Below the pieces are notes generated by a model. It made no database searches. It saw nothing but the letters and a program-made list of their open reading frames with translations, and was not told the origin of the DNA. Shown here one piece after another: positions 18,815-24,528 of a stretch of DNA of 25,607 nucleotides. This stretch comes from a virus. Made by a program: the position numbers and the translations under genes. Location: the IMG/VR virus record IMGVR_UViG_3300032084_000291, positions 1-25,607 of that record; one strand, 5' to 3'. The first letter of the stretch is position 1; each line of letters starts with the position of its first letter.

Positions 18815-19024
18815 ATGCCAAAGAAAAAGAAAAAAAGCGGTAAGAAGTACCACACTACAAAAGACGGCAGACGGGCTAAAAGGGGTCTTTATTATAATAT
18901 AAATAAAAAGAGGAAGTCTGGTAAGAAAATGCGTAAAAAAGGCGCTAAAGGCGCTCCTACGGCTGCCGCTTTTAAAAAATCAGCTAAAACAGCTAAGAAA
19001 AAGAAAACAAAAAAGAAAAAGTAA
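18815..19024 (+). CDS. Lys-rich small basic phage protein (1)
   Basis: The 69 residues are almost half Lys or Arg (MPKKKKKSGKKYHTTKDGRR, then GLYYNINKKRKSGKKMRKK). I recall the DGRRAKRGLYYNINKRRKAG layout as a conserved small phage protein. Likely nucleic-acid binding by charge alone; possibly an internal packaged protein. AGGAG at 18805-18809, five-base spacing. The stop overlaps the next start (TAATG). Confidence 0.72.
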   Translation: MPKKKKKSGKKYHTTKDGRRAKRGLYYNINKKRKSGKKMRKKGAKGAPTAAAFKKSAKTAKKKKTKKKK

Positions 19025-19179
19025 TGAAAGTAAAAGCACCAAAAGGGTTTCATTGGATGAAACAAAAAAGAGGATCCCCTAAGTTGATGAAACATACGGG
19101 TAAATATAAACCGCATAAGGGCGCAAGTCTTTATGCAAATTTTGATGTTCAAAAAACACATGGCAGCAAAAAAGCGTAA
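19024..19179 (+). CDS. Lys-rich small basic phage protein (2), 51 aa
   Basis: A 51-aa frame between the two other basic genes, coding MKVKAPKGFHWMKQKRGSPK then LMKHTGKYKPHKGASLYANF and DVQKTHGSKKA. The KAPKGFHWM, PHKGASL and VQKTH parts recall a conserved small protein of marine phages. It starts on the last base of the previous stop (19024) and overlaps the next gene by 20 bp. The tight packing and family-like sequence make it a credible gene although it is short and lacks a clear ribosome site. Function unknown; DNA or RNA binding is suggested by charge. Confidence 0.65.
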   Translation: MKVKAPKGFHWMKQKRGSPKLMKHTGKYKPHKGASLYANFDVQKTHGSKKA

Positions 19180-19432
19180 AAAGACTAAACCGATAAGAAG
19201 AACGACTAAAGGTAAAAACGCTAATTATCGTTCAACTAAGTCTGGTGCGGGAATGACCGCAAAAGGTAGAAAAAGATATAATAAGAAAAATAAAAGTAAT
19301 TTAAAAGCACCTGTTACAGGCAAAGTTAAAAAAGGCAGCAAAGCCGCAAAAAGACGTAAGTCTTTTTGTGCTCGGTCAAAAGGATGGACGGGCAAAAGAG
19401 GCAAAGCTGCTAGAAGAAGATGGAAATGTTAA
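19160..19432 (+). CDS. Small basic phage protein (3), DUF6321-like
   Basis: A 90-aa very basic protein with the family-like run YRSTKSGAGMTAKGRKRYNK, VTGKVKKGSKAAKRRKSFC and ARSKGWTGKRGKAARRRWKC. I recognise this as the DUF6321-type protein found in many marine phages; its function is unknown. Two Cys (SFCARS and the C-terminal WKC) are kept. I chose the ATG at 19160 because family members start MAAKKRKK-like; upstream in-frame ATGs at 19133 and 19145 lie within the 51-aa gene. The SNase gene begins immediately after the stop. Confidence 0.78.
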   Translation: MAAKKRKKTKPIRRTTKGKNANYRSTKSGAGMTAKGRKRYNKKNKSNLKAPVTGKVKKGSKAAKRRKSFCARSKGWTGKRGKAARRRWKC

Positions 19433-19863: not shown

Positions 19864-20244
19864 ATGAACGATGAAAGAGATTATCACCCTAGCGGAAGAT
19901 TCGGAGGCGATATGGATCGCAATGAAGTCGAAATGGATCTCAGCAAGTTTATGGCAATGGTTGAAGAAATCGGGGCTTTAAAAGATAAAATTCGAGATTT
20001 AGAAGATAAGAAAAATGATAACCCTTTCCAAAAGTTTATTTTTGTTGCACAAGCTATAGACAGCTGGCGGATTATTCCTAGAGCATTTTTAGCGGTGTAT
20101 ATGTATTTGCTTTATTACACAACTTTTTGGTTTATGGATTTACCAGATCCTAGCTTTGAACAATCAGGTTTAATTTCCATTGTTGTTGGCGCAGGTGCTG
20201 CATGGTTTGGACTCTATACAAACAGCCATAAGGGTAAAAAATGA
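19864..20244 (+). CDS. Two-span membrane protein, holin-like
   Basis: A 126-aa protein with an acidic coiled-coil-like N-terminus (about 20-50) and two membrane segments (about 73-92, RAFLAVYMYLLYYTTFWFM, and 102-118, GLISIVVGAGAAWFGLY) joined by a short DLPDPSFEQS loop; a basic tail (HKGKK) follows. The layout fits a holin with both ends in the cytoplasm, and I recall VVGAGAAWFGLY in marine phage membrane proteins. AGGAG at 19854-19858, five-base spacing. Its stop overlaps the next start (ATGA). No endolysin is seen beside it, so lysis function is inferred. Confidence 0.65.
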   Translation: MNDERDYHPSGRFGGDMDRNEVEMDLSKFMAMVEEIGALKDKIRDLEDKKNDNPFQKFIFVAQAIDSWRIIPRAFLAVYMYLLYYTTFWFMDLPDPSFEQSGLISIVVGAGAAWFGLYTNSHKGKK

Positions 20245-20423
20245 AAATATTTTTAACTGAATACAAAATAGGAAAAGAAATACTTGATGGTCCTGTTATC
20301 GCAGCGGATTCTTTTGAAGAAGCAGAAGAAGAAGCTCAAGTTTATAATTTGATAGTCGTTGGTATGTTAGATGTTTATGTTTTAGAACCTTCAGAAACGA
20401 GTATAGACAGAGTATTGCATTGA
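20241..20423 (+). CDS. Small phage protein of unknown function
   Basis: A 60-aa alpha/beta protein (MKIFLTEYKIGKEILDGPVI, then DSFEEAEEEAQVYNLIVVGM). The strand-loop-strand-helix-strand order with an FEEAE helix is a recurrent small phage protein of unknown function. It is coupled on both sides: ATGA with the membrane protein and TTGA with the secreted protein downstream. Soluble, acidic. Confidence 0.68.
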   Translation: MKIFLTEYKIGKEILDGPVIAADSFEEAEEEAQVYNLIVVGMLDVYVLEPSETSIDRVLH

Positions 20424-21604
20424 TTAGATATATTAAATACATTCCTTTTTTATTTCTACTAGGTTTGACGCAACCGTCTTACGCAGATCAAACTGGTGAT
20501 TGCACAGCGGGTTCTCAGTATTGTGAACAAAATTCGATGACTACTACATCGGCTACGACCACAACAAACACCAACACCAATACAAACACAAATACGAATA
20601 CCAACACAAACACCAACACAAACACGAATAATAATACCAACACAACTACTGCAACGAACACGAATACGAACACCAACAACAATACAAATAATAACACGAA
20701 CACGAATACTTCGACATCAACAGCAACGAACACAAATAACAACACGAATACGAACACGAATACTTCGACATCAACAGCAACGAACACCAATAACAACACT
20801 TCGACATCAACAGCAACGAACACCAATAACAACACTTCGACATCAACAGCAACGAACACCAATAACAACACAAACACCAGTACATCGACAAACACAAACA
20901 CAAATAACAATAACAATAACAATACCAGTACATCGACCAATACAAACAACAATAACAACACGTCGACAAGTACAAACACCAATACAAACAACAATAACAA
21001 CACGTCGATTTCTAATAACACAAACGTAAATAAGAACGAGTCGAACTCAAACTCAAACGTAAAAACAGACAATAAAAACGTTAATGAAAATACCAGCACT
21101 TCTGACAACACCAATCGAAACATTAATGAATCAAAGTCTGAACAAACTATTAATCAAAACATCACGACTAAAGCACCGCCTGCTTCTGCGATTGCTCCTT
21201 CTATAATGAGCTATAGTCAAGACCTATGTACTGTAGGTCGTTCTGGCGCATTTCAAGGACAGGTATTTGGTTTATCGGCTGGAAGAACAGTCAGAGACGA
21301 AAACTGTGAACGATTAAAATTAGGTAAATACCTATACGACATGGGCATGAAAGTCGCAGCAGTTGCTATTATGTGCCAAGATGTAAGAGTATTTAGTGCG
21401 ATGTATATGGCTGGTACTCCCTGCCCGTATGAAGGAAAAATAGGCGAAGAAGCAAGAGTAGCATGGGCTGCTAATCCTAAAGATCGACCAGATTATAAAG
21501 AAGCAAAAGCCAGTTATGTTGCCAAATGCGTTAGAACAGAAAACTCGGCTGGACAAAATAAATCAAGACTGACTTGTAAGCGTGAGTTTGATAAGGGCAG
21601 TTAG
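20420..21604 (+). CDS. Secreted Asn/Thr-repeat protein with C-terminal Cys-rich domain
   Basis: A 394-aa exported protein. The TTG start at 20420 (overlapping the upstream stop as TTGA) gives a clean Sec signal peptide: MIRYIKYIPFLFLLGLTQPS then YA|DQ, cleaved after A22. Residues 41 to about 210 are nearly pure Asn and Thr (NTNTNT, with NTSTSTATNTNN units), grading into a Lys/Glu/Asn segment. From 251 a compact domain follows: APPASAIAPSIMSYSQDLCT, then RDENCERLKLGKYLYDMGMK and VAAVAIMCQDVRVF, with six Cys that could form disulphides in the periplasm or outside. I recall similar C-terminal domains in marine phage proteins but know no function. A phage gene for an exported stalk-plus-head protein suggests a cell-surface or exclusion role. 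Overlaps the next secreted-protein gene by 23 bp. Confidence 0.78.
   Translation: MIRYIKYIPFLFLLGLTQPSYADQTGDCTAGSQYCEQNSMTTTSATTTTNTNTNTNTNTNTNTNTNTNTNNNTNTTTATNTNTNTNNNTNNNTNTNTSTSTATNTNNNTNTNTNTSTSTATNTNNNTSTSTATNTNNNTSTSTATNTNNNTNTSTSTNTNTNNNNNNNTSTSTNTNNNNNTSTSTNTNTNNNNNTSISNNTNVNKNESNSNSNVKTDNKNVNENTSTSDNTNRNINESKSEQTINQNITTKAPPASAIAPSIMSYSQDLCTVGRSGAFQGQVFGLSAGRTVRDENCERLKLGKYLYDMGMKVAAVAIMCQDVRVFSAMYMAGTPCPYEGKIGEEARVAWAANPKDRPDYKEAKASYVAKCVRTENSAGQNKSRLTCKREFDKGS
20560..21020 (+). repeat. Low-complexity AAC/ACN repeat tract encoding Asn/Thr
   Basis: About 460 bp of alternating Asn and Thr codons. A near-identical unit (ACTTCGACATCAACAGCAAC and flank) begins at 20708, 20762, 20798 and 20834; the last three have an exact 36-bp period, giving a 12-residue protein repeat. 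The strong strand asymmetry makes long spurious reverse-strand frames. Confidence 0.85.
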
Positions 21605-23948
21605 TCTATTTGCATTATTATTTGTACCTACAGTCAATGCAGGTTATATCTATGAAGCAAATCAATCTTTAATTGATCTAACAAGCGAAAGTAACACAAC
21701 CAATATGGGCGTTGGCGATGACCAAGTATCGTCTGCGTTTAATTTAGATTTTACATTTACATTTTATGGTGAGGATTTTACATCTGCTAGAATGGCAACC
21801 AATGGTTGTCTACACTTTGGGTCGACAGGAGGTTATTGTAATGACTACACACCTGATCCTTTAGCGGGACAACATACTTACACCTTATATCCTTTTTGGA
21901 CTGATTTAATACGAGACAACGGCTCCAGTGTTCTCGCTAGAAACTTTACAGATAAAGCTGTATTTGGTTGGTATAACTTACGAGAATACAACAGAAGTGG
22001 CTCAGATAACTCTTTTGAAGTCATATTATGGAAGTCAGACGACAGCTTTGAGTTTCGTTATGGCGGTTTAGATGTTATCAATCACGATGTATTAATCGGT
22101 GAACAAGGAAGCTCAAGCGAATCATACACTTATTTGTATCACGATGAATGCGGTACAGGCTCAACGAATGTCGCTGGCGTTTGTGTCAATACCAACTGGA
22201 ACGACACTTCTTTTAATACTTTGCTAGAAAATGGCGGAAGTTTATACGGTGTGGGTTCTGGTAATGGGTTAGACTGTAGCAATCCCCTAAATGATACCGC
22301 ATGTACTGGTTACCAAGCAGCTTTTTTAACTCAACAGTGTGATTTAGATGGATTGTATTCTACTCAATGTCCTAACTATTGGGACGATTTGTTTGATTAT
22401 GAGTGTGCTTTGGACTCGCAGTATTCGCCAGCTTGTGCTGGATATATGGTCGAAACTTTTGTCGAGGATGCCTATTATCAAGACGATATGTATGGGTATG
22501 ACACTTACGAAGACGATCAGTATGGTTATTCTGACCCTTTCCAAGAAGATTATTACTTTGAAGAAGACCCTGTCTATATTACTGAGCTACAGGGGATAGA
22601 ACATTACGAAGATGAGTTTTATTTTGAAGAACCCTATTACGAAGAAGAACTGTATTACGAAGAAACACTTTATTTTGAAGAAGAATACCTTGAACCTTTT
22701 GTAGAAGAGTTTGACACATTACCTGAAGAAATTTTTATTCCATTAAGTTATATCGAAGAAGAACCTTATATAGAACAGCTATATGAGGAAATATTATTGG
22801 TGGAAGAATATTATCAAACAGATTATGATCTTCCAGTATTAGAAGATATTTTATTAGATCATTTTGAACATGAAGAATTTATTGAAGAAACTTTTGAAGA
22901 GGACTCTGTAGAATTTTTAGAATTTGAAACAATAGAAGAACTGGAGGAGTGGATTGAACAAGAAGAAACGGAGGAAATACTTGAGGAACTTGCTGTTTTA
23001 TCTGATGATGAAGATGGAGACTTGGAGGATTCGGAGACAGTTGAGGAAGAAATACAAGACCGAGAAGAAGATATCGAACTTGTTGTCGCGGAGAATGAAG
23101 AAAAGAAAAACAACAAAAGAGCAGAACAATTAAACGTTGTAGCTAACAGTATTCTTGCGGCAAGCAATAGTGTAAGCGGAACAACAGCTGGAACGTCGGC
23201 ACAAGCAACAGGAATGTCTGCGTCTTCAGGCGGTTCTTTTTCTACAACAACGTCTTCACAAGCAAACGCAGTGACTTCTTCAGTGTCTGGAGGAACGGTT
23301 AGTATCAGTAACTCCCCCAGTATCTCTGCTCAAGTTGCAAGTTCCGCAATACAAACACAACAAGTTTTATCAATGAGTGCTAATACTACTGCTATAGGTA
23401 ACAATAATACCGCAGTTGGTCAAACGGACTCAAATACTATAGGTAACAATAATACCGCAGTTGGCGGCTCAACAACAGTTGCCTCTAACACCTCAGCAAA
23501 TACAGGGACTTCAGGCAATACTAGCGGTACTCAAAACGTAGCAGTTGGTCAAAACGACTCAAACACTAGTGGTTCTCAAAATACCGCAGTAGGTTCAATG
23601 GAGTTAGAGATTGATACAGCGATGTCTGAAATGCCCGCTTCAGAAGCTGATTTAATTGCCGATCAAATCGTTGCTCAAAATATAGAGAATCAACAAGAAG
23701 AATTAGAACAACAGCAACAAGAAACAGGTGAGTATGGTGATGAAGCACAACTGATTGCTTATATGGGTTTTGTTCCTGGCTTTAGTGCTTATAGCCAAGT
23801 AGAGGTGCCACAACCTAGCGTTTGGTATGAGCCTGAGTTAATATATACTAATGTTAATATCCCAGATAATAACTCAGCGTTTCGTGGGTTATATGGTGAA
23901 AGTTTAACTGGGATGAACGATATAATAAAAATGCAACCTAACTTATAG
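21582..23948 (+). CDS. Large secreted acidic protein with YadA-head-like repeats
   Basis: A 788-aa exported protein. GTG at 21582 (TTG at 21588 is the alternative) gives a signal peptide MSLIRAVSLFALLFVPTVNA cut before GYIY. Residues 21-210 form a beta domain (FNLDFTFTFYGEDFTSARMA, TNGCLHF) like nidogen-type or similar extracellular domains. Residues 232-290 hold Cys repeats of the type CDLDGLYSTQCPNYWD. Residues 294-505 are extremely Glu/Asp/Tyr-rich. After a Ser/Thr/Ala linker, 604-680 carry AIGNNNTAVGQ-like repeats resembling the YadA adhesin head. The C-terminus is a separate conserved-looking block (PSVWYEPELIYTNVNIPDNN). No C-terminal anchor is evident. It overlaps the previous secreted-protein gene, so both are made together; an adhesin or surface protein is the natural guess, not proven. 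Confidence 0.78.
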   Translation: MSLIRAVSLFALLFVPTVNAGYIYEANQSLIDLTSESNTTNMGVGDDQVSSAFNLDFTFTFYGEDFTSARMATNGCLHFGSTGGYCNDYTPDPLAGQHTYTLYPFWTDLIRDNGSSVLARNFTDKAVFGWYNLREYNRSGSDNSFEVILWKSDDSFEFRYGGLDVINHDVLIGEQGSSSESYTYLYHDECGTGSTNVAGVCVNTNWNDTSFNTLLENGGSLYGVGSGNGLDCSNPLNDTACTGYQAAFLTQQCDLDGLYSTQCPNYWDDLFDYECALDSQYSPACAGYMVETFVEDAYYQDDMYGYDTYEDDQYGYSDPFQEDYYFEEDPVYITELQGIEHYEDEFYFEEPYYEEELYYEETLYFEEEYLEPFVEEFDTLPEEIFIPLSYIEEEPYIEQLYEEILLVEEYYQTDYDLPVLEDILLDHFEHEEFIEETFEEDSVEFLEFETIEELEEWIEQEETEEILEELAVLSDDEDGDLEDSETVEEEIQDREEDIELVVAENEEKKNNKRAEQLNVVANSILAASNSVSGTTAGTSAQATGMSASSGGSFSTTTSSQANAVTSSVSGGTVSISNSPSISAQVASSAIQTQQVLSMSANTTAIGNNNTAVGQTDSNTIGNNNTAVGGSTTVASNTSANTGTSGNTSGTQNVAVGQNDSNTSGSQNTAVGSMELEIDTAMSEMPASEADLIADQIVAQNIENQQEELEQQQQETGEYGDEAQLIAYMGFVPGFSAYSQVEVPQPSVWYEPELIYTNVNIPDNNSAFRGLYGESLTGMNDIIKMQPNL
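23392..23464 (+). repeat. Exact 28-bp direct repeats in the YadA-like region
   Basis: Copies at 23392-23419 and 23437-23464 are identical (period 45 bp) and encode the AIGNNNTAVG/TIGNNNTAVG units. More diverged units continue to about 23600. Sequence identity suggests recent duplication or gene conversion. Confidence 0.88.
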
Positions 23949-23957
23949 AGGAATAAT

Positions 23958-24323
23958 ATGGACTGGTTTCAGAATAAAACAACACAACTCATCGCTCTTG
24001 CGGGGATTGTCAGCACATTGGCTGGATTTGGTTATACAGGTGCAACGTATGTTAATCGCATAGAAAACCTTGAGTCTAAGATGACTCGTTATATTAACGA
24101 GATAGATGCTTTAGCGGACCAAGTAACGGGTTTAGATAAAAATGTGGTTGCGGTTGGCGAACAAATTAAGTCTTTAAATATCGAAACGGAAGATTTAAGC
24201 CCGATAAAAGCGGACATTATCGCTATTCAAACAAGCGTTGCGGGCATAAATTCGAGTATTGATTCGATGTACGATGACGTACAAGCCCTGAAAAACAAGA
24301 ATGATAACCCTTTAGCTAACTGA
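23958..24323 (+). CDS. Membrane-anchored coiled-coil protein (spanin- or holin-like layout)
   Basis: A 121-aa protein with one N-terminal membrane segment (about 10-30, LIALAGIVSTLAGFGYTGAT) and a long heptad-patterned coil (33-115, VNRIENLESKMTRYINEIDA onward). The layout, a short cytoplasmic start, one span and an extended periplasmic coil, is that of an inner-membrane spanin (Rz-like) but also of other anchored coils. No overlapping Rz1-like lipoprotein frame was noticed. GAGGA at 23948-23952, five-base spacing. Being the last gene of the secreted-protein cluster, it could also assist those proteins. Confidence 0.65.
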   Translation: MDWFQNKTTQLIALAGIVSTLAGFGYTGATYVNRIENLESKMTRYINEIDALADQVTGLDKNVVAVGEQIKSLNIETEDLSPIKADIIAIQTSVAGINSSIDSMYDDVQALKNKNDNPLAN

Positions 24324-24420: not shown

Positions 24421-24528
24421 ATGTTTGGAGTAGATAAAAAAGCATATTCTAAAAAAGCGGAACGTCGTTCTGCTTTTGTTCGTTATTTCGCCAACGGTAA
24501 AAAGCAAAAGACAAGGAGCCGATTCTAA
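24421..24528 (+). CDS. 35-aa basic small protein
   Basis: A short frame coding MFGVDKKAYSKKAERRSAFV then RYFANGKKQKTRSRF. AGGAG at 24412-24416 is four bases before the ATG, and the stop overlaps the next start (TAATG). The strong ribosome site and coupling support it as a real gene. Highly basic and soluble; function unknown. It holds the AAGGAG that serves the cupin-like gene (AGGAG 24514-24518). Confidence 0.6.
   Translation: MFGVDKKAYSKKAERRSAFVRYFANGKKQKTRSRF

Follow-up and report, generated by a model that had tools for sequence, protein, structure and literature searches.

We found that three adjacent genes of an ocean phage, here called NT, BIG and coil, form a conserved unit. The export signals of their products, the position of the unit in the lysis cassettes of related phages, and bacterial NT relatives that carry an OmpA domain or have an exported neighbour together point to a late-expressed module at the host outer envelope that displays a secreted partner on the cell surface, a reading to which we assign a probability of about 0.5. 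The first-pass annotation had proposed that five genes at this location act on the envelope as one functional unit. This proposal holds for NT, BIG and coil, whose order is kept and which are jointly absent from three close terminase relatives; it fails for the holin-like gene and the gene for a 60-aa protein, and the conserved unit is therefore one of three genes, not five. That annotation mentioned neither the place of the trio among the lysis genes of many relatives nor the bacterial occurrences of the NT domain. The window, meaning the whole stretch of DNA that was analysed, is the 25,607-bp virus record IMGVR_UViG_3300032084_000291, with the following features:

19,864–20,244 (+), holin-like small membrane protein, 126 aa; matches phrog_10198 (E 2e-24)
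20,241–20,423 (+), 60-aa protein without a membrane segment, present only in the closest relatives
20,420–21,604 (+), NT, exported protein of 394 aa, TTG start; matches phrog_20531 (E 8.6e-14)
20,567–21,003 (+), tandem-repeat DNA coding for the NT linker, from repeat analysis
21,146–21,601 (+), C-terminal region of NT (four-cysteine domain) modelled with AF2
21,582–23,948 (+), BIG, exported protein of 788 aa, GTG start; profile match to RemA (8gl6)
23,958–24,323 (+), coil, 121 aa, with an N-terminal membrane segment, a coiled coil and a C-terminal NPL motif
24,453–24,477 (+), terminator-like hairpin with a T-rich tail just 3' of the coil gene, from a consensus scan only

The five open reading frames are linked, in order, by overlaps of 4, 4 and 23 bp and then by a 9-bp gap, in agreement with the overlaps and short gaps described at first pass, and an SNase gene ends 2 bp upstream of the holin-like gene. 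Tight packing alone is ordinary for phages; what exceeds chance expectation is that the order NT-BIG-coil is conserved. Comparison with close relatives gave dN/dS values mostly between 0.01 and 0.13 for the NT domain, BIG, coil and holin-like genes, and values of up to 0.26, in the most distant pair, for the 60-aa gene. Since these values are mostly low, we conclude that the genes are real and maintained under purifying selection. An antisense reading frame of 202 aa (20,515–21,123, minus strand) overlies the repeat array, and is most likely a low-complexity artefact.

The terminase of the window phage is 53–58% identical to those of HTVC023P-type phages (023Pt_psg01, HTVC027P and HTVC023P) and 59% identical to that of the freshwater phage DSL-LC04. 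The window phage itself is an ocean phage, whose host and lifestyle we infer. Relatives were sampled as 80 of BIG, 80 of the NT domain and 23 from genome assemblies. We give no weight to the host names attached to loci in metagenome-assembled genomes, because such loci probably represent phage contigs that were misbinned.

Relatives of the NT domain occur in at least 597 IMG/VR stretches, and BIG follows NT in 148 of 167 loci. In 18 of the remaining 19, the contig stops no more than 437 bp after NT, and one (L191) has a partial match. In the 108 non-redundant loci, BIG comes after NT wherever the contig goes on, with one partial exception; coil comes after BIG in 78 of 82 non-redundant loci. 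The trio is intact in hundreds of marine phages, including the isolates HTVC115P (gp54-53-52), HTVC023P (gp45-46-48), HTVC202P (gp24-25-26), HTVC033P (gp46-45-44) and Baldr, the T4-like Mosig (202-201-200), an uncultured Votkovvirus, and the Roseobacter phages CRP-207 (gp75-74-73) and CRP-810 (gp53-52-51). Its order is therefore kept across podophage and myophage lineages, and the genes that the first-pass annotation suggested might co-occur as a block, or else be scattered or independently lost among relatives, do stay together as far as NT, BIG and coil are concerned. In three of the closest terminase relatives the trio is missing as a whole: none of its genes was found in the parts of HTVC027P, 023Pt_psg01 and DSL-LC04 that we searched, and a search of the whole records with NT gave no match in any of these phages. 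Isolate phages were reached only with the NT domain; tblastn with BIG or coil returned no informative one. Distance matrices of NT, BIG and coil were correlated with each other (rank correlations of 0.71–0.80, versus 0.20–0.28 with neighbouring genes). On matched loci, however, NT and BIG showed no excess over neighbours except against hol3, and we therefore dropped the argument from co-evolution. The trio has no name in Pfam, NCBIfam or PDB, and we found no description of it in the open-access literature. The cluster phrog_20531 (PHROGs v4, no function assigned) is matched by NT of the window, of pelagiphages, of CRP-810 and of phiAxp-2; it is a sequence cluster, and the partner genes BIG and coil lie outside its description.

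The two genes just upstream of NT behave differently from the trio. The holin-like gene, whose family (phrog_10198) is found in 358 phage records, lies upstream of the trio in 23, downstream in three and is absent in 31 of the 57 testable non-redundant loci. It adjoins endolysin or spanin genes in relatives such as L105, L106, L125 and L164, and does not do so in KVP40. We conclude that it is a frequent neighbour of the unit, not an obligatory part of it. The 60-aa gene is local to the closest relatives and likewise lies outside the unit. A second family of small membrane proteins ('MGFPFEIITMLGS', phrog_38283) is encoded just 5' of the trio in T4-like, Votkovvirus and podovirus contigs (L195, 9059–9490; L148, 8057–8488; L085, from 514), and is a candidate holin.

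We judged signal peptides and hydrophobicity with simple scripts, using a hydropathy cut-off of KD >= 1.6 over a 19-residue window. By this heuristic, signal-like N-termini are present in 146 of 153 NT and 141 of 148 BIG reading frames, and a lipobox is present in none of the former and four of the latter. The description of NT and BIG as two overlapping exported proteins is thus borne out, with signal-peptide-like starts on both and a 23-bp overlap between their genes, as is that of coil as an anchored coil, the 121-aa protein having one N-terminal hydrophobic segment followed by the coil. The broader statement that four of the five genes encode a membrane segment or signal peptide stands for NT, BIG and coil; the holin-like protein has two moderately hydrophobic segments by eye, both of which fall below the cut-off.

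NT consists of a signal peptide (residues ~1–23), a linker rich in Asn, Thr and Ser (~30–240) and a domain in which four cysteines are invariant (~264–360). The linker is encoded by imperfect tandem repeats, and its length varies among relatives, as slippage by repeat units of a length divisible by three would predict. The AF2 model of residues 243–394 has a pLDDT of 80.7 and predicts a beta hairpin plus helices. No relative of NT was found in PDB by sequence or, with Foldseek, by fold, and its relatives in BFVD come from phages only. BIG consists of an N-terminal beta-sandwich (~30–220), an acidic disordered middle, a segment rich in Ser, Thr, Gly and Asn, and a conserved C-terminal motif, WYEPxxIYxxxxxxDN; the beta-sandwich is confident in the AF2 model, and the rest of the model is mostly disordered. 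A profile of the N-terminal part (profile positions 12–164) matches RemA (PDB 8gl6, E 6.3e-9), a Flavobacterium gliding adhesin and type IX secretion substrate. The RemA chain has 1436 aa, and the remainder of BIG is unrelated to it. Single-sequence search found nothing linking BIG to RemA, Foldseek gave no fold match for BIG in PDB, and Pfam NIDO matched one of 60 BIG-family members with an E-value of 0.041, below the cut-off. The N-terminal part of BIG differs in other phages, one of which has a weak match to CBM_4_9. In coil, an N-terminal hydrophobic segment precedes the coiled coil, and the protein has a weak match to the Rz-like family phrog_739 (E 0.0013); the coiled coil is probably in the periplasm, a topology that is a guess.

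Related phages have lysis genes interspersed with the trio, namely an endolysin (phrog_7; PF00959 with an E-value of 3e-47 in L164) and, also beside the trio, an i-spanin (phrog_739, E 7e-11) and a lipobox-containing o-spanin (phrog_812, E 2e-16). L105 has the order endolysin-SNase-Rz-Rz1-hol-NT-BIG-coil, and L125 the order hol-NT-BIG-coil-Rz-Rz1-SNase-lysozyme. To measure this association, we took 39 non-redundant loci whose contigs extend at least 4 kb to either side of the trio. Of their endolysin and spanin genes, 27 are no more than 2 kb away from it (0.173 per kb) and three are in the approximately 379 kb beyond (0.008 per kb), a ratio that is not a probability because the set of loci is weighted to related lineages; 19 of the 39 loci have at least one such gene within 4 kb. 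In the clade of the window we recognised neither endolysin nor spanin, whether in the neighbourhood or in a 64.6-kb relative (G002, L193–L196), in which M15 peptidase, lysozyme and other hydrolase families were also not found. The link of the window's trio to lysis consequently comes from its relatives. Two Roseobacter phage proteins, CRP-207 gp73 (L088, 3292–3870) and CRP-810 gp51 (L199, 6198–6617), are labelled lysozyme in GenBank. We rejected this label, since both are coil-family proteins in which no lysozyme domain was found, and took them out of the lysis argument.

The density of lysis genes near the trio, together with the gene orders in L105 and L125, would fit an accessory of lysis or release as the primary role, added to holin, endolysin and Rz/Rz1, with such possible actions as loosening of the outer membrane, regulation of a holin from the periplasm or the freeing of progeny from debris. 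We regard this as a real possibility, albeit a doubtful one. The trio has no catalytic domain, the clade of the window has no recognisable endolysin or spanin either nearby or in the 64.6-kb relative, and no lysis genes were seen around the four bacterial NT loci that we read at length. The trio resembles the Rz/Rz1 spanins in combining a putative inner-membrane coiled coil with adjacent exported proteins in a lysis cassette, and differs from them in having no outer-membrane lipoprotein. Canonical o-spanins occur alongside the trio in seven of 22 contigs, which tells against the accessory role too. Given that true Rz and Rz1 genes adjoin the trio in relatives and that lipoboxes are essentially absent from NT and BIG, we rejected the trio as the spanin itself.

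The NT domain is not confined to phages: it occurs in Burkholderiales and in Novosphingobium, and we found it in Burkholderia, Variovorax and Novosphingobium replicons. It occurs in six of 300 sampled genomes from the order of G538 and is rare in two other classes (2 of 289 and 2 of 274 sampled genomes, seeds included). Four cysteines, two glycines, one aspartate and one arginine are invariant in phage and bacterial domains. The Novosphingobium protein, alone among the bacterial relatives, combines the NT domain in one chain with an OmpA peptidoglycan-binding domain (PF00691, E 1.2e-17). This domain is not found in phage NT: there was no match to PF00691 in NT of the window or of roseophages, and Pfam does not back the 'OmpA family' label given to CRP-810 gp53. 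In 11 of the 12 bacterial loci (of which L214 and L215 are from one genome), a gene for an exported protein composed of 55–80% Ala, Gly, Ser, Thr and Asn lies directly upstream of NT on the same strand, with an extra short exported reading frame between the two in L205 and L216. This pair is present in Achromobacter phage phiAxp-2 as well, and the operons of this type in bacteria and Achromobacter phage are those of L205–L207, L214–L222 and L204 (44,598–45,710). Apart from the OmpA domain, the proteins of the bacterial operons have no Pfam or NCBIfam name. The bacterial partners share their composition with the Ser/Thr/Gly/Asn-rich segment of BIG and have no sequence in common with it; their genes lie upstream of NT, and that of BIG lies downstream. 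This pairing suggests a rule, namely that NT travels with a secreted low-complexity partner, and that BIG is this partner in marine phages.

Based on these observations, we favour surface display of the secreted partner as the role of the trio. NT and BIG would leave the cytoplasm through the host Sec pathway, and the disulphide-rich domain of NT may fold at the outer membrane or peptidoglycan, where it could help to export, anchor or assemble the partner. BIG would be that partner, an adhesin-like protein with an N-terminal domain that varies between phages and a constant C-terminal motif. Coil would be an inner-membrane protein with a probably periplasmic coiled coil, and may link the complex across the envelope. 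We infer late expression from genome position; the module would be made with the lysis genes and would remodel the outer cell surface late in infection. Such a module could serve in adhesion or aggregation, in superinfection exclusion or in aiding release, and sequence does not decide among these roles; adhesion or aggregation and superinfection exclusion would both make use of surface display, and a role in release would follow from genomic position.

Superinfection exclusion is a subset of display, in which BIG at the surface would mask a receptor or block re-adsorption to infected cells or debris. The export signals and the variation between phages in the binding-type domain of BIG are consistent with it; we consider it unlikely, as nothing links the trio to a receptor and its late position would give protection only in the final stage of infection. 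Still less probable is that the trio is a component of the virion, such as a spike or fibre, and not of the host envelope. In the 64.6-kb relative, the trio region is flanked by tail-fibre and SNase genes on the one hand and DNA-ejection genes on the other, which is in favour of a virion component; however, conserved signal peptides on NT and BIG are unexpected for tailed virions, which assemble in the cytoplasm, and the four conserved cysteines of NT suggest an oxidising compartment.

The known system closest in idea to the trio is the curli (type VIII) module of pelagiphages, a multi-gene exported system of the same phage groups for which aggregation, exclusion or lysis timing has been proposed (PMC9599517, PMC7029224, PMC9004378); lysis timing is the proposal of PMC9004378, and type VIII secretion was reported in nine HTVC023P-type genomes (PMC9599517). 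The shared hosts and the shared idea of an exported Asn-rich protein could be taken to mean that the trio is a divergent form of this module. The curli module is based on CsgG, CsgF and CsgA, however, none of which we found for the trio. CsgG (PF03783) had no match in 20 trio-bearing contigs, although control genomes were positive, and NT, BIG and coil of the window had no match to curlin repeat, CsgA, CsgF or CsgG in Pfam at E <= 1 (for coil, among the best 25 of 33 weak matches). As NT also lacks a fold match in PDB, we rejected homology to curli, and regard a divergent curli module as extremely improbable.

The preferred reading, surface display by the phage trio, can be extended to a broader and tentative one, which we think rather unlikely to be correct: that NT, partner and coil are an unrecognised export and display system of the Gram-negative envelope common to bacteria and phages, with the NT domain as an outer-membrane assembly or secretion element, and that marine phages adopted this system and incorporated it into their lysis cassettes as a means of coating the dying cell. 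Whichever applies, three genes are held together across unrelated virion types, even though not every member carries them. Should the trio place adhesins on the surface of dying cells, it would be relevant to the release, retention and re-adsorption of progeny, and also to the possible aggregation of infected SAR11 cells. The bacterial NT relatives open the trio to study in culturable hosts.

Two further regions of the window flank the genes described here. Upstream of the SNase gene, positions 18,815–19,432 encode three consecutive small proteins that are very rich in lysine. Just past the terminator-like hairpin, the gene at 24,528–25,082 matches the tail-fibre adhesin families phrog_12032 and phrog_24280. 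This gene was not detected in L004 or L005, and is only 65% identical in L002, a relative that is otherwise very close, marking it as a variable adhesin spot.
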